Below are positions 697 to 20,666 of a DNA stretch of 20,666 nucleotides, piece after piece (the stretch's first letter is position 1; every line of letters begins with the position of its first letter). Both the position numbers and the translations under genes were made by a program. The stretch is from a virus: positions 1 to 20,666 of IMG/VR virus record IMGVR_UViG_3300031999_000234; one strand, written 5' to 3'. The notes beneath the pieces were generated by a model. The model was not told the origin of the DNA and searched no databases. It saw nothing but the letters and a program-made list of their open reading frames with translations.

Positions 697-936
697 TCAT
701 CCGAAGATGCCCCGAAAGAGGTCGTCGAGGCCGGGAACGTCTAGCGTAGCCTCGCCGACCTCGTCGCCGTCCATGACGATGACCCGCATGGTCGGCCCGG
801 TCGATTCGCCGTGCGTCGGCGTCACGGTCAGAGGTTCCTCGGGGGGGTTCGGGTCGACCTCACTGTCGGCGTCCTCGGCGGGGTTATAGTCCTCGGGTGG
901 GTTCGGGTTCGGGTCGGTCGCGTACTCGGTGGTCAT
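697..936 (-). CDS. Acidic Pro-rich small protein, 79 aa
   Basis: The start is ATG 936, with GAGGAGGGACC directly before it. The next gene upstream (start 1179) has a near-identical leader. The first half is low-complexity and strongly acidic, rich in Asp, Glu, Pro and Asn with repeated NPP units (residues about 8-35), and is probably disordered. The second half (from about residue 49) looks like a short beta strand (MRVIVMDG) followed by an amphipathic end, DLFRGIFG. The high negative charge would fit a DNA mimic or a partner-binding protein, but nothing specific proves that. No family is recognised. It lies 9 bases downstream of the 77-aa zinc-ribbon gene and is probably co-transcribed with it. 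Confidence 0.7.
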   Translation of the reverse strand: MTTEYATDPNPNPPEDYNPAEDADSEVDPNPPEEPLTVTPTHGESTGPTMRVIVMDGDEVGEATLDVPGLDDLFRGIFG

Positions 937-945
937 GGTCCCTCC

Positions 946-1179
946 TCAGTAGCCGTAGCCTTTACCCTTGCGGGCCTCGTAGACGAAGCTGGCCGCGAGG
1001 GGGTGGTCATCGCCCTCTTTGGCGACGTGCTTCATAACGTCCTCGCAGGTCGGGTCGGTGCTCATCAGGTCGAGCACGCAGTCGGCGCACAGGTGCCGCT
1101 CTGACAGCGCCTCGATGTCGTAGAACGCGCGGGCCTCATTCCCGCAGCGCTGACACCGCTTGTCGGTCGTCTTCGTCAT
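946..1179 (-). CDS. Zinc-ribbon protein, 77 aa
   Basis: ATG 1179 is chosen because it forms an ATGA junction with the stop of the preceding gene and has GAAGGAGGGACC just before it. The longer open frame would overlap that gene by 54 bases. CQRC at residues 9-12 and CADC at residues 31-34 form a treble-clef or zinc-ribbon style site. A helical, acidic segment with a third Cys and a basic, aromatic, Gly-rich tail (KGKGYGY) follow. It probably binds zinc and perhaps nucleic acid or protein. Its Cys-pair layout resembles the C-terminal ribbon of the GGCT-like protein encoded two genes upstream, though the spacing is not identical. Function is unknown. Confidence 0.78.
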   Translation of the reverse strand: MTKTTDKRCQRCGNEARAFYDIEALSERHLCADCVLDLMSTDPTCEDVMKHVAKEGDDHPLAASFVYEARKGKGYGY

Positions 1180-1487
1180 GGTCCCTCCTTCGTCCATGGC
1201 CCCCACGTCTTCGCGTCGACGATTTGGAGGCACAGCTCACGGTGCGTGTAGGTCGCGTCGACCTCGGCGTTGAAGTAGCGCTCGAAGGCGTCGCGCGGTA
1301 GCTCGTACTCGGTGACGAGGTCGAGCAAGTGGCCGCTGGCGAGCACCACCCACGCATGGCCGAGGCGCGGGTGGCCGTTACCTTGGATGCTGCCGTGCAC
1401 GAGCACGGCGTCGGGGTGGTCGAGGGCGTAGCGCCCGGCCAGCTCGTAGCACTTGCCGAGGCGCTTCTTGATGCCGGTCGCTTTCAC
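1176..1487 (-). CDS. Small protein with transglutaminase/papain-like Cys-His-Asp pattern, 103 aa
   Basis: The start is GTG 1487 with AAAGGAGCCGCC upstream. Visible pattern: GKCYELAGRYA puts a Cys (13) at the head of a helix. LVHG (residues 29-32) and GHAWV (His44) form two strands, and LLDLVTEY (Asp56) follows. A Cys at a helix start, then His-Ala-Trp-Val, then Asp on the next strand is the order of the catalytic triad in transglutaminase-like and related papain-fold enzymes. The spacing (31 and 12 residues) is compact but plausible. If active, it could hydrolyse or exchange amide bonds. Its placement next to a GGCT-like enzyme and an amidoligase is suggestive. The fold call is inference from motif order alone, and a non-enzymatic protein is possible. 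Confidence 0.7.
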   Translation of the reverse strand: MKATGIKKRLGKCYELAGRYALDHPDAVLVHGSIQGNGHPRLGHAWVVLASGHLLDLVTEYELPRDAFERYFNAEVDATYTHRELCLQIVDAKTWGPWTKEGP

Positions 1488-1521
1488 GGCGGCTCCTTTC
1501 CTCGACCCGGCGGCACGTTCG

Positions 1522-1537
1522 GGCGGTGTCCACCGCC
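1522..1537. promoter_or_regulatory. Perfect inverted repeat in the gap after the GGCT-like gene
   Basis: GGCGGTG and CACCGCC are perfect 7-base arms around a 2-base centre. The element lies in the 87-base gap between the stop of the GGCT-like gene and the GTG of the transglutaminase-like gene. The close arms suit a protein-binding operator better than an RNA hairpin. There is no U-run on either side. Confidence 0.4.
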
Positions 1538-1574
1538 GTACTCCCGCTCTCTCTTGAGCGGTCTGCCGCGCGGG

Positions 1575-2258
1575 TCACTCGTCGGCGTAGTAGGGCGCGT
1601 CGACCTCTTCGCCGACGCCGAGCTTCAGGAAGCAGTCGAGGCAGGCGTAAGTCGCCTCGGTCACGGTCACGACCTCGCCGCCGCCGAAGTGTTCGCCGCA
1701 CAGCTCGCAGGCGTACTCGGTGGCCCGGGCGGCGTGCACCGCTCGGGCCTCTTCGCGTGAGGTCTCAAGGTAGGCGAGGTCGAAGCCCCAATCGCTGTAG
1801 CCCTCGGCGCAGGTCTCGTAGTAGTGAGGCGGCGGCGGGGTCTCAGTGTAGGGCGGGTTCAGGACGTAGTAGAAGGTCGCGACCCGCTCGCCCTTCACGG
1901 TCGCGTGGGCGTAACGCTTCGAGTACATGCGGGGGAAGCCCTCGTAGCGGTCGAGCGCCGCGATGTCTGCGGGCTCGACGCGCCAGATGGACACGGGGGT
2001 CGAGCGCCCCTCGCAGGGCTCGACCGTGAGCACCCGCGCGAAGACGAGGCGCTGGTCGGGCAGCATGCCGCCGGTCACCGGCATCGCGGTCGCGCAGCGG
2101 GCTTGCATCTGCACGACGTTGTGGTTGCTGCCGTAGCCCACGTAGTAGCGCGGGTGGTCGGCGTACTTCTTCGCGAGGTCGACCGGCTTCGCGGCCCAAC
2201 TGTAGGCCGGGGCGGCGGCGTGCTTGCCGTGCTTGCGGCCCTTGTGTTTCTTGCTCAT
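1575..2258 (-). CDS. Gamma-glutamylcyclotransferase (GGCT/AIG2)-like enzyme with C-terminal zinc ribbon, 227 aa
   Basis: ATG 2258 makes an ATGA junction with the preceding gene. An ATG four codons earlier is possible. A basic Lys/His-rich N-terminus (residues 1-13) precedes the GGCT-fold domain. YYVGYGSN at 38-45 matches the family's nucleotide-like YGSN loop. RLVF (70-73), PVSIWRV (88-94) and ALDRYEGFP (101-109) follow, and Glu106 is the expected general-base Glu. EGYSDWGFD (152-160) fits the C-terminal motif of AIG2-like members. CELC (184-187) and CLDC (206-209) form an added zinc ribbon. Family enzymes cyclise and release gamma-glutamyl groups from amines, giving 5-oxoproline. Here, beside an amidoligase, the protein may remove or trim a gamma-glutamyl-type conjugate. 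The substrate is unknown. Confidence 0.8.
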   Translation of the reverse strand: MSKKHKGRKHGKHAAAPAYSWAAKPVDLAKKYADHPRYYVGYGSNHNVVQMQARCATAMPVTGGMLPDQRLVFARVLTVEPCEGRSTPVSIWRVEPADIAALDRYEGFPRMYSKRYAHATVKGERVATFYYVLNPPYTETPPPPHYYETCAEGYSDWGFDLAYLETSREEARAVHAARATEYACELCGEHFGGGEVVTVTEATYACLDCFLKLGVGEEVDAPYYADE

Positions 2259-2506
2259 CGCGACCCCCATTCGATAGTCACGAGCCCGGCGGCCACGAGG
2301 TCGTCGAGGAAGTGTCGCGCGGTGTCGCTGCGCACGTCACAGCGGTTGTAAATGGCGACCCGGCGCGCGACCTCGACCATGTACTCGCCGGGGTCGGTTT
2401 CGCGCAGGAACGCGGTTTTCCAAAGGAGGCCGACGAACTGCTCGGCGGTCTCTGCCCGAAAGGTCTCGGGGCGGTGGTCACTGAGGATGCGAAGGGTGCT
2501 GGTCAT
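2255..2506 (-). CDS. Small protein between amidoligase and GGCT-like genes, 83 aa, winged-helix-like
   Basis: The start is ATG 2506 with GAGGAGG five bases before it. The stop shares an ATGA with the GGCT-like gene, so translation is probably coupled. The sequence is mostly helical. The stretch VARRVAIYNRCDVRSDTARH, followed by FLDDLVAAGLVTIE (about residues 46-80), reads like a helix-turn-helix and wing ending in a short beta strand, as in small winged-helix proteins. No conserved DNA-binding signature is certain. It might be a regulator or an accessory subunit of the two enzymes around it. I do not recognise the family. Confidence 0.7.
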   Translation of the reverse strand: MTSTLRILSDHRPETFRAETAEQFVGLLWKTAFLRETDPGEYMVEVARRVAIYNRCDVRSDTARHFLDDLVAAGLVTIEWGSR

Positions 2507-2516
2507 AGGGGCCTCC

Positions 2517-3485
2517 TCAAGCAGCCGCCGCGAAGGCGGCGGCCCTGTCGGTGAACCAGCGCCGCACGGAGCGCGGCGGCTTGACGAGACTCATCAGCTT
2601 GGCCTCGGTCGGGGCGACCCGGGGGCTGACGACCGCGCCACGGTGGGCACTCTCGACCATGCTCTGCGTGAACGCGACCCAGTTGAGGATTTTCGCGAAG
2701 TCGGTGGTCCCGCCGAAGTGGCGAAACTCGACCGTGCCGTGCCGCCAGAAAGAGGTCACGTTCAGCTTCACGAAGCGGTCGCCGAAGACCTGCCGGAGAG
2801 CTTGCAGGTCATAGGCGTTGTCGATGCGCTGCAGGGCCGTGGTTTCTGAGTGCCAGCGCCGCATCGAATGGCACATGCTGTTAGCGTCGCCGCGCCGACT
2901 CGCGGGCACGACGCCGTCAAGGATGGGCTCGTAACGCACGTACATGCGCGCCAGCGTCTTCCACGCGGGGAGCGCGAGGTCGTGCGCGTCGTGGTGGACG
3001 TGCAGGCCGCAGCCCCGGTCGACGAACGCGCCGAGGCGCTTGAGGAGCTTCGTGATTTTCTTGAGCTGCGCGACGCCCTCGCTGCCACGGAGGATAGGCG
3101 ACACGACTTCCATGCCGTAGTACCGCTCGTAGTGGCCGTCGACGTAACGCTCGCCGCCGTGCACGGTGCCGTCGGGAACGACTTTCCAGTCGCTCACAAG
3201 CTGATGCGTGTAGCCGGGCGAGTTACAGGCGATGCCGAGGCGGCGAATCTTGGCCGCGACTTCGTTGATGGTCAAGCTCGGAACCTTGCACTCGATTTCG
3301 ACGCCGAAGGTGCGCGTCGCGTTGACCTTGACGGCGCGCAGGCGGGCGCTCTCGCTGGCCCTTCTCGCGCAGGCCAGACAGCAGCGGTGCCCGGGAGCGA
3401 ACGCGCTCTCGGGCAGGGTCTCGCTGCAGTGGGAACAGAAACGGGTCGGGGTCGCAAGGCCCGACTGGTCGGTGAGCAACGTCAT
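2517..3485 (-). CDS. Amidoligase (COOH-NH2 ligase family) with N-terminal zinc ribbon, 322 aa
   Basis: The start is ATG 3485, preceded by GAGAGGAACCACG. Residues 17-39 form a zinc ribbon (CSHC...CLAC). The catalytic domain shows the amidoligase pattern in order: TFGVEIEC (59-66), DWKVVPDGTV (99-108), GMEVVSP (124-130), CGLHVHHD (159-166), an Arg-rich helical region, then KLNV (240-243) and HGTVEFRHFGGT (249-260). These Glu, His and Arg residues correspond to the metal/ATP site of this glutamine synthetase-like fold. The family is predicted to join a carboxylate to an amine using ATP, making amide or peptide links on small molecules or proteins. The gene leads a compact set with a GGCT-like enzyme, which supports a modification pathway. 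The acceptor is unknown. The Ala-rich tail is unremarkable. Confidence 0.88.
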   Translation of the reverse strand: MTLLTDQSGLATPTRFCSHCSETLPESAFAPGHRCCLACARRASESARLRAVKVNATRTFGVEIECKVPSLTINEVAAKIRRLGIACNSPGYTHQLVSDWKVVPDGTVHGGERYVDGHYERYYGMEVVSPILRGSEGVAQLKKITKLLKRLGAFVDRGCGLHVHHDAHDLALPAWKTLARMYVRYEPILDGVVPASRRGDANSMCHSMRRWHSETTALQRIDNAYDLQALRQVFGDRFVKLNVTSFWRHGTVEFRHFGGTTDFAKILNWVAFTQSMVESAHRGAVVSPRVAPTEAKLMSLVKPPRSVRRWFTDRAAAFAAAA

Positions 3486-3511
3486 CGTGGTTCCTCTCTC
3501 TCGCGACCGGG

Positions 3512-3679
3512 TCAGTGGGCGGCGCGGAACGCGGCCCGCATGAGGTCAGTGGTAGACACTTTCGAGGCCAGCCTGTTTGAGCAGGCGAACACCGAACAGT
3601 GGGCGCAGCCCCTCGGGCTGACGCAGGGATGGAACGGGGCGCTCGTGCCAAGAGCGTGCTTTGCGGCGGTAGCCTTCAT
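3512..3679 (-). CDS. Tiny Cys-rich protein, 55 aa
   Basis: ATG 3679 is preceded by GAGAGGAACCACG, the same 13-base leader as the amidoligase gene and almost the same as that of the 594 gene. That is the main support for this frame. The protein is basic and has Cys at 19, 25, 28 and 33 (C-x5-C-x2-C-x4-C), which could bind zinc. A helical basic tail follows. It is the first gene after the long untranslated stretch and lies 26 bases ahead of the amidoligase. No family is recognised. The Cys spacing is irregular, so metal binding is a guess. Confidence 0.6.
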   Translation of the reverse strand: MKATAAKHALGTSAPFHPCVSPRGCAHCSVFACSNRLASKVSTTDLMRAAFRAAH

Positions 3680-18427: not shown

Positions 18428-18735
18428 CAGTACACCTCCAAAGTGCCCGCGCAGGCGGCCGGTTTCTGGCCGCCAAGCTCCCACTTCACGTACATCAGGT
18501 AGAGCCCCCGGTCGAGGTCGACGACGCCTTCAGGGCCGACGAGGCACTGTGCCCAGTAGGCCCCGTTCGCGTCGGTGCGCCACGAGCCCCCCACCCACGT
18601 TGTCGCGGGGTCGTCGCTGAGGGCGTGGCTGGTCGGGAAGGCAAAGGAGACCGGGTAGCCGACCGGGCTCTCGCTGGCGCTCACCTCGACCTCGACGAAG
18701 TCGGTGCTCGCCGCGCTCACGCTCAGTAGACTCAT
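18427..18735 (-). CDS. Small beta protein upstream of connector, 102 aa
   Basis: ATG 18735 makes an ATGA junction with the repeat-rich gene. The protein is a likely Ig-like or beta-sandwich domain: FVEVEVSASESPVGYPVSFAF, then WVGGSWRTDANGAYWAQCLVG, then DLDRGLYLMYVKWELG and closing strands TLEVY. Similar small proteins are found in many actinophage genomes between capsid and connector genes. Their role is not settled, and a head decoration or scaffold-related role is possible. No metal or catalytic residues. It sits in the head block, so the neighbours support a virion role. Confidence 0.72.
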   Translation of the reverse strand: MSLLSVSAASTDFVEVEVSASESPVGYPVSFAFPTSHALSDDPATTWVGGSWRTDANGAYWAQCLVGPEGVVDLDRGLYLMYVKWELGGQKPAACAGTLEVY

Positions 18736-20666
18736 CTCACGCTCCCTGTTGTGTTCCTCGTCGCGGTCCTGCCGGTCGCGCTAGACGATACCCTGCCGGG
18801 GGTCTTCGTGGAAGTGCGCCGCGCGCCAAGGCGCAGATAGATGCCAAGGGTGTGCTGCGCCTCGGCCGCCGAACTGAGGTGCATGGTCAGGGTCGAGGCG
18901 GCACTCAGGACCGTGTCGACGCCCGACGTAAGCTCGGCGCTGGCGGTCAGCGTCGCCGTAAGCGTCGAGGCCGCCGTCAGGGTGGTAGCCGCCGGGGCGC
19001 TGTGCGTGAGGTCGGCGCTCGCCGAGAGGTAGCCGGTCAGGGTGCTTGCGCCCGTGACCACCGTCGGCGTAGCGGGGGCGTGCGCCAACGCGGCGGCCCC
19101 GGCGAGCCCGCCGGTCAGCGTGCTTGCCGCACTCAGGGTGGTAGTGGCGACCCCGTGCGTGAGGGCCGCCGAGGCGGCCACGAACGCGGTCAGGGTCGAG
19201 GCCGCCGCCAAGGTGGTCGGCGTGGCCGGGGAGTGAGTAATGCTGGCGGCCCCCGCCGTGAGGCCCGTAAGCGTCGAGGCGGCACTCAGAGTGGTATCCC
19301 CTGCACCCGTGACCGTGAGGTTGGCACTGGCGCTCACAAAGGCCGTGAGCGTGCTTCCCGCCGCGAGGGTCGTGGGGGTCGCGGGCGCGTGCGCCAGCGC
19401 GGCCGAAGCCGCCGTGAACGCGGTCAGGGTCGAGGCCGCCGAGAGGACCGTGGGCGTCGCGGGTGCGTGCGTGAGGCTGGCCGCGCCAGCGGTGAAGGCG
19501 GTAAGCGTGCTCGCCGCCGAGAGGGCCGTGTTCTGAACTAGCGCTGCGGCCCCTGCCGTGAAGGCCGTCAACGTGCTGGCGGCGCTCAAGGTCGTGGGGG
19601 TCGCAGGTGCCCATGTAAGAGAGGCGCTGCCTGCCGTGAACCCCGTCAGCGTCGAGGCGGCGCTCAGGGTCTTCGGCGTCGCCGGGGTCCACGCTATCGC
19701 CGCTGCGGCAGCCGTGAAGGCGGTCAGAGTGGAGGCCGCAGAGAGGGCCGTGTTCTGCACGAGGGAGGCGGTCGCTGCCACGAACCCGGTCAGGGTCGAC
19801 CCGGCGCTCAAGGTCGTGGGCGTGGCGGGGCTGTGGCTGATGCTGGCCGCGCCAGCGGTGAAGCCCGTGAGGGTAGACGCGGCGCTCAGGGTCGTCGGCG
19901 TGATGGGAGCGGAGTGTGCTATCGCGGCGCTGCCTGCGGTGAAGGCGGTCAGGGTGCTGGCCGCGCCGAGCGTGGTCGTGTACTGGTAGTGGGTGACGCT
20001 GGCGGCGGCGGCGGTGAAAGCGGTCAGGGTGGAGGCGGCGCTGAACGTGATGGGCGGCACTTCGCCGAAGCAGACGATGACGTAGCCGAGGTCGTCGGTG
20101 ACGCAGGTCAGGCCGCGAGTACGGGTGCCCGTCGTAGGCGTCGTCTCGTAGCCGGAGAAGAAGGCGTAGGTCGGCGTGCCGTAGAGCATGTACGTGCCGG
20201 TGCCGATGGTCATGCTCGTGCCGGTCGGGACGGTGACGCCACCCGAATACGCAGCGGCGAATATCTGCGTGGTCATCGACCCGGCGACGATGCTTTGCTG
20301 CGCCATGGCGGCGTTGTTGTTCAGCGCATAGGGAGTGGTCTTGGATTCGAGGTCGGTGCCGCCGCCGAGCAGGTAGGCCACGGCGTACATGGTGGTCGTG
20401 CTGTTTGTGCGCGTGACGACCACGCCGCCAGTAGGCGCACCGGAGGGGACGCTGACGCCGAGAAAGAACGTCTTACAGCGCCCCTTCTCAGTCGTCGTGT
20501 CGTAGGCGTTCGCTCCCGAGAGCGCGGGGACGCTGGTGCCCCCGTAGGTGACGCTGGTTATCTCGTCGGTGTCGAGGACGCCCTGAAAGACGAAGACGAG
20601 GATGCCCTTGGGGGTATCCCCAGCCTGACCCGGCTGGAAAGTGAACGAAGCTTCGCTGACCGAGCC
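18732..20666 (-). CDS. Repeat-rich head-cluster fibre-like protein, 5' end outside window
   Basis: The frame is open through the right edge. A GTG at 20423 is within the reading frame, but 81 further codons upstream are in frame and fit the same domain, so the true start lies outside (at least 644 residues). The visible N-terminal part (about 207 residues) has GILVFVFQGV, DEITSVTYGGTSVP, TFFLGVSVPSG and FAAAYSGGV, a beta-sandwich pattern of the VTSVTYGG type seen in phage structural proteins. Then 16 repeats of about 25 residues (LSAASTLTAFTAGAA, variable, then HAPATPTT-like) extend to about residue 605. A basic Ser/Thr/Arg tail of 39 residues closes the protein. Placed between capsid and connector genes, it could be a head fibre. 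A displaced tail fibre is also possible. Confidence 0.82.
   Translation of the reverse strand, partial: GSVSEASFTFQPGQAGDTPKGILVFVFQGVLDTDEITSVTYGGTSVPALSGANAYDTTTEKGRCKTFFLGVSVPSGAPTGGVVVTRTNSTTTMYAVAYLLGGGTDLESKTTPYALNNNAAMAQQSIVAGSMTTQIFAAAYSGGVTVPTGTSMTIGTGTYMLYGTPTYAFFSGYETTPTTGTRTRGLTCVTDDLGYVIVCFGEVPPITFSAASTLTAFTAAAASVTHYQYTTTLGAASTLTAFTAGSAAIAHSAPITPTTLSAASTLTGFTAGAASISHSPATPTTLSAGSTLTGFVAATASLVQNTALSAASTLTAFTAAAAAIAWTPATPKTLSAASTLTGFTAGSASLTWAPATPTTLSAASTLTAFTAGAAALVQNTALSAASTLTAFTAGAASLTHAPATPTVLSAASTLTAFTAASAALAHAPATPTTLAAGSTLTAFVSASANLTVTGAGDTTLSAASTLTGLTAGAASITHSPATPTTLAAASTLTAFVAASAALTHGVATTTLSAASTLTGGLAGAAALAHAPATPTVVTGASTLTGYLSASADLTHSAPAATTLTAASTLTATLTASAELTSGVDTVLSAASTLTMHLSSAAEAQHTLGIYLRLGARRTSTKTPGRVSSSATGRTATRNTTGSVR
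18852..20045 (-). repeat. Coding tandem repeat, 16 units of about 75 bases
   Basis: Inside the repeat-rich gene, 16 units of 22-27 codons share an ST-LT-A/G core preceded by L-S/A-A. Between cores the linkers alternate, for example HAPATPTT, HSPATPTT or QNTA. DNA-level identity is strong in cores (GTCGAGGCGGCGCTCAG-like stretches) and weak in linkers. Length variation among strains by recombination is likely. Confidence 0.85.

Follow-up and report, generated by a model that had tools for sequence, protein, structure and literature searches.

Which of the genes standing beside a phage amidoligase belongs to the system in which that enzyme works is the question raised by the virus record IMGVR_UViG_3300031999_000234, the whole 20.7-kb stretch of which we refer to here as the window. 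The record carries a phage amidoligase operon made up, when read leftwards, of an amidoligase, a small partner, and a gamma-glutamyl cyclotransferase-like (GGCT) protein:

2517-3485, minus strand: amidoligase P0004, 322 amino acids, with the Amidoligase_2 profile
2255-2506, minus strand: small partner P0003, 83 amino acids, of an unannotated family directly 3' of phage amidoligases
1575-2258, minus strand: GGCT/AIG2 protein P0002, 227 amino acids, with the family profile and the YGSN and YEG motifs

A preliminary description of the locus had passed over the role of the small open reading frame (ORF), which on comparison with relatives turned out to be the neighbour most strongly conserved beside the amidoligase: among diverse phages the small gene accompanies that enzyme most consistently, being kept more often than the GGCT gene.

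A search of viral contigs with an alignment of six amidoligases yielded 80 loci, which, along with phage records and the window, made up 89 non-duplicate loci comprising 7136 ORFs. These loci are the closest to the window amidoligase out of 386 confirmed ones—L007-L010 having entered via GGCT searches—so that the small-gene rates apply to this amidoligase subfamily. With a small-gene profile seeded by three ORFs (from the window, from the contig L002, and from a Porphyromonas phage) and then extended iteratively at E<1e-3, a homologue was found downstream of the amidoligase on the same strand in 68 of the 89 loci, or in 65/86 upon exclusion of the seed loci; and when the loci having at least 1.2 kb of downstream DNA were clustered at 70% amidoligase identity, the small gene was present in 40 of the 48 clusters. 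A second seed set recovered the gene in 70 loci, in every one of which (70/70) it lay downstream and on the amidoligase strand and in 63 of which it lay within 100 bp; usually, it touches the amidoligase stop codon. The matches of a seed-independent model (E<1e-3) were, among the 7136 ORFs, confined to these amidoligase neighbours. According to the second model, the small gene occurred together with the GGCT in 30 of the 48 clusters and without it in 12, the GGCT occurred on its own in 6, and no cluster was devoid of both. In 29 of the 43 loci that had both genes, the GGCT start was situated at -15 to +11 bp from the small-gene stop. The window itself displays this tight packing, in that the GGAGG just ahead of the small-gene ATG overlaps the amidoligase stop, and the small-gene stop overlaps the GGCT ATG in the form of ATGA.

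The association was also approached from the side of the small protein. The 33-member alignment of its family was too diverse to serve as a search seed, and therefore subgroups were used, which in viral contigs gave 11, 15, and 5 loci, with an amidoligase directly upstream in 31/31; some of those loci, such as L095, were new with respect to the first set. In the phage collection, the 10 records with the small gene were all amidoligase records with matching adjacent coordinates (10/10), while the two records found in the plasmid collection, both circular and from Phocaeicola, carried the amidoligase-small gene pair (2/2), for a total of 43/43 phage or plasmid loci with an amidoligase directly upstream of the small gene. 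In an IQ-TREE phylogeny of 67 amidoligases, the small gene required 6 changes, versus 12.1 for shuffled labels. That tree contains a clade of 17 sequences (support 100/98; L077, L037, L025, L049, L031, L041, L038, L061, L080, L064, L053, L005, L042, L065, L027, L032, L067), one member of which comes from a Porphyromonas phage; all 17 are accompanied by the small gene, and no GGCT was found up to about 6 kb downstream.

The ratio of nonsynonymous to synonymous substitution (dN/dS) of the small gene was <0.54 in all unsaturated pairs, which values indicate that the gene encodes a real protein under purifying selection. The family of that protein was previously unnamed and is missing from Pfam, PHROGs, and NCBIfam, inasmuch as neither P0003 nor any of 33 family members had a PHROG match at E<=0.01 or a credible match in Pfam or NCBIfam. 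The predicted structure of P0003, a bb-aaa-b arrangement with a pLDDT of 83 and a pTM of 0.74, had a best match of only E=0.62 in a fold search of the PDB and matched an unnamed viral protein with a TM of 0.86 (E=1.8e-4). Among 50 diverse members, the near-invariant positions are R49 (47/50), F66 (46), M43 (44), L70 (43), and G13 (43/49), at the last of which the window protein has a Pro. An RRE/PqqD-like identity, proposed by a single member (NCBIfam, E=0.01), found no support in the fold and was discarded; and a genome-contig match for the small protein, L103, was a false positive located inside a RecB-like ORF.

The two enzymes on either side of the small gene proved to be what the preliminary description had taken them for. 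P0004 matched the Pfam family PF12224 (Amidoligase_2) with E=8e-36 and 124.6 bits, against a curated cut-off of 22, as well as phrog_2443 (E=2e-40), and bears the Glu/His/Arg motifs in the form of GVEIE (G61-V-E63-I-E65), CGLHVHHD, and VEFRHFGGT, of which the GxExE (G61, E63, E65), CGxHVH, and ExR columns are invariant across six phage homologues. The first of these motifs is the GhExE metal/ATP signature that marks the carboxylate-amine ligase superfamily (PMC2588565). P0002, for its part, matched PF06094 (E=8.8e-9; 36.4 bits, against a curated cut-off of 22.8), phrog_2520 (E=1.2e-26), and phrog_27033 (E=2e-24); its YGSN and YEG motifs are conserved, with Y42-G43-S44 and E106 being invariant in close homologues and Y42, G43, and E106 present in 8/8. 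A single-sequence GGCT search of viral contigs gave no match. We also observed that an annotated second amidoligase of the Terrisporobacter phage TPDSL_ph1 (L010:3872-4600) is devoid of the GxExE and CGxHVH motifs, so that its annotation may be based solely on a shared C-terminal segment.

The link between amidoligase and GGCT that had been pointed out for the window proves genuine, recurs in other phages (36/48 clusters with GGCT), and has long been in the literature: the ligase family was described in neighbourhoods containing either an Aig2-family cyclotransferase, in Firmicutes, or a glutamine amidotransferase-like peptidase, in proteobacteria (PMC2588565, 2008), and examples of the amidoligase-GGCT combination have been annotated in phages (PMC5498523, PMC3890496, PMC5513430, PMC11253131). 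We likewise saw the pair in records of a Bacillus phage, of gut phages, and of a Terrisporobacter phage. Since that neighbourhood was published in 2008 and annotated in many phages, the pair is not new. The window resembles the neighbourhood of Iyer et al. 2008 (PMC2588565) in the ligase family, the cyclotransferase neighbour, and the predicted amide formation, but differs in that a small conserved ORF, whose sequence is not Pup-like, is here the commonest phage neighbour. The cassettes of PSA-HP1, phiEco32, and LUZ24, for which a modification of the host wall that blocks superinfection was proposed (PMC5498523, PMC3890496), likewise combine a phage amidoligase with a GGCT, but contain in addition a glutamine amidotransferase, a second ligase, and an ATP-grasp enzyme; the window and most of its relatives, in contrast, carry the small partner, and no glutamine amidotransferase is detectable in them, whereas in LUZ24 no small partner is detectable. 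A glutamine-amidotransferase model run over the 89 loci matched only L003 and L004, the window not being among them. In the Arthrobacter AL-cluster phages (Salgado and relatives; PMC5513430) an AIG2-like gp97 adjoins the amidoligase gp98, but there the GGCT is diverged and lies upstream of the amidoligase, with a glutamine amidotransferase downstream; the small partner was not detected in Salgado and only weakly so in Ottawa (E=0.002). A wall-modification prediction of 2009 (Iyer et al. 2009), in the form in which the citing papers relay it, is repeated in them without test.

Because the small gene is the one that most consistently accompanies the amidoligase in diverse phages, its product is likely to be a functional component that had been overlooked in the system. 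On balance we favour, by a modest degree of confidence, the interpretation that the small protein is a dedicated subunit of the amidoligase, made in step with that enzyme, and that the GGCT is an optional eraser, which functions we infer from the genes and their order. The chemistry of the two enzyme families is that of an ATP-consuming carboxylate-amine ligase and of a cyclotransferase releasing 5-oxoproline. The amidoligase would thus couple a carboxylate with an amine at the expense of ATP, producing an amide of the gamma-glutamyl type; the small protein, produced in step through the overlapping or touching genes, would act with the enzyme as an activator, a specificity factor, or a substrate-presenting factor; and the GGCT, where present, would remove the modification as 5-oxoproline. 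Candidate targets would be a host wall peptide, a host protein, or a phage protein.

Distance matrices (n=35) correlate most strongly for the amidoligase and the small protein (r=0.74), ahead of amidoligase-GGCT (0.55) and small protein-GGCT (0.44), which is in favour of such a dedicated subunit even though the correlation is partly due to shared phage history. Several observations weigh against it. The small gene went undetected in 19 to 21 of the 89 loci (those of the Heliusvirales type, one marine group, and others), and is absent in the loci obtained via the GGCT searches (L007-L010). In 2 of 395 Bacteroidota genomes (L134 and L135) there is a lone chromosomal homologue of the small gene, with no Amidoligase_2 detected genome-wide, which finding means that the small protein can exist without an amidoligase; in the other direction, the short flanks of 30 Bacteroidota chromosomal amidoligases contain neither the small gene nor a GGCT. 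Considering both these flanks and the phage loci lacking the small gene, we conclude that the amidoligase fold itself does not need the small gene and, since the pair occurs in the phage loci and the chromosomal exceptions run both ways, that the pairing is a phage feature. The two lone homologues (L134:1501-1725 and L135:1501-1752) stand in ordinary-looking chromosomal surroundings, one after a MazG-like gene and the other near a GbsR-like regulator.

The small protein could, as an alternative that we consider unlikely, be a modified carrier or tag, extended or conjugated by the amidoligase and trimmed by the GGCT in a manner loosely reminiscent of Pup and PafA. Amidoligase_2 and PafA indeed share the carboxylate-amine ligase superfamily (PMC2588565), in both instances a ligase would act with a small protein, and the small gene lies between the writer and the putative eraser, overlapping them. 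The family itself, however, speaks otherwise: among the 50 diverse members there is neither a conserved Lys, Glu, or Gln acceptor nor a C-terminal motif or residue in common, the C-termini varying freely; the conserved residues are mostly of the core type, plus one Arg; and the clade of 17 has no GGCT nearby. Unlike Pup, moreover, the window protein has no conserved acceptor or terminal Glu/Gln and no Pup similarity. With no fixed acceptor residue, a Pup-like tag becomes less likely. Slightly less probable still is that the small protein regulates the operon, as a transcriptional or toxin-antitoxin-like factor, and stays outside the enzyme chemistry, a role for which its small size, its richness in helices, its location next to an enzyme gene, and weak helix-turn-helix-type Pfam matches (E=0.11 for P0003 and 0.019 for another member) might argue. 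The fold search, nevertheless, returned neither a winged helix nor any other fold that binds DNA, so that a plain regulator is less likely and the initial designation of the 2255-2506 ORF as winged-helix-like is not confirmed, the Pfam match cited being its best of that type; the gene is furthermore located downstream and not at the head of the operon, and the cluster had no PADLOC match that would point to anti-phage defence. The bolder proposition that the 83-residue protein founds a new phage family whose members serve the amidoligase as substrate or carrier, within a phage tagging system having a writer and the GGCT as an optional eraser, we hold to be improbable.

The last alternative, that of the preliminary description, involves the genes that follow the GGCT:

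1176-1487, minus strand: Cys-His-Asp protein P0001, 103 amino acids, an optional neighbour with no family
946-1179, minus strand: zinc-ribbon-like protein P0005, 77 amino acids, with a Pfam DZR_2 match of E=7e-4 that is below cut-off

P0001 has Cys13, His44, and Asp56 in that order, and the sole relative detected, L057:9031-9363 (phmmer E=2.8e-11; 33% identity), keeps the triad (CYELxGR, LVHG, HAWV, and Asp56). The predicted model, derived from two sequences (pLDDT 80), places Cys13 in a helix (5-23), His44 in a strand (42-48), and Asp56 in another (53-56), with the Cys-helix and His/Asp-strand arrangement of the papain and transglutaminase-like folds. Of the designation "transglutaminase-like", therefore, the order of the residues stands, but P0001 gave no relevant family match in Pfam, PHROG, NCBIfam, or PADLOC and nothing in Foldseek at E<=0.001, where vasohibin, staphopain, and PeiW recur at E 0.4-1.6 with a TM of about 0.2-0.35. 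A Cys-His-Asp enzyme with a transglutaminase-like fold is, on the strength of the model, plausible. Searches for further relatives in viral contigs, genome contigs, phages, and plasmids returned nothing significant. We set aside a Polaromonas plasmid match (E=0.1), whose annotated neighbours do not include an amidoligase, and treated as chance the HypC-like matches (PDB, E=0.038; NCBIfam, E=0.021), which were short and left the Cys outside.

That the amidoligase, the GGCT, and the transglutaminase-like enzyme form a functional trio that makes, exchanges, and removes a modification is the least likely of the readings considered: all three genes share a strand and fit into 2.3 kb, the single relative of P0001 that was detected, in the 66-kb viral contig L057, follows an amidoligase and its small gene at a distance of about 2 kb, and a transglutaminase-like domain has been found fused to a different ligase family (PMC2588565), but P0001, with neither a family nor a significant fold match, is missing from the syntenic relative closest to the window and has one relative among the amidoligase loci, a dedicated, albeit weak, two-sequence search having returned that contig only. 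The relative in question, L002, has a 48% identical amidoligase followed by a CxxC ORF, the small gene, the GGCT, and then a homologue of window 697-936, with both the 103- and the 77-residue genes being absent. A conserved trio is therefore unsupported, and P0001 is not a conserved member of the cassette but an optional neighbour. The idea of making and removing is, in addition, already in print, with glutamine amidotransferase and not transglutaminase as the further enzyme, in a set termed "peptidoglycan modification cassette" (PMC5498523).

P0005, likewise, is a neighbour whose link to the cassette is at most putative. Zinc-ribbon-like CxxC...CxxC pieces recur in the cluster, at the N-terminus of the amidoligase (about residues 17-39, putatively zinc-binding), as a ribbon at the C-terminus of the GGCT, and in this 77-residue neighbour; in the Heliusvirales phages L008-L009 and the Terrisporobacter phage L010 a separate zinc-ribbon ORF comes directly after the GGCT. 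As to the surroundings, connector, tail, tape-measure, and endolysin genes lie upstream of the cluster on the same strand, and since the cluster thus comes after late genes, its description as "early" is without support. Just upstream of the amidoligase, an ORF of 55 amino acids (3512-3679, minus strand) contains Cys residues (CVSPRGCAHCSVFAC) and shares its leader, AGAGGAACCACGATG, letter for letter with the amidoligase gene (3483-3497); the pattern appears again at 592-606, giving 3 matches in the window versus 0.35 expected. At 18732-20423 (minus strand) a 563-residue protein consists mostly of degenerate "LSAASTLTAFTAGAA" repeats and has no PHROG match.

Phage amidoligases have been annotated for more than 15 years, and to our knowledge their substrate is not known. 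A small protein, hitherto without a name, whose gene is linked to that of the enzyme provides a direct handle on these amidoligases and may be required for their activity; its presence corrects the view that amidoligase neighbourhoods contain enzymes only.

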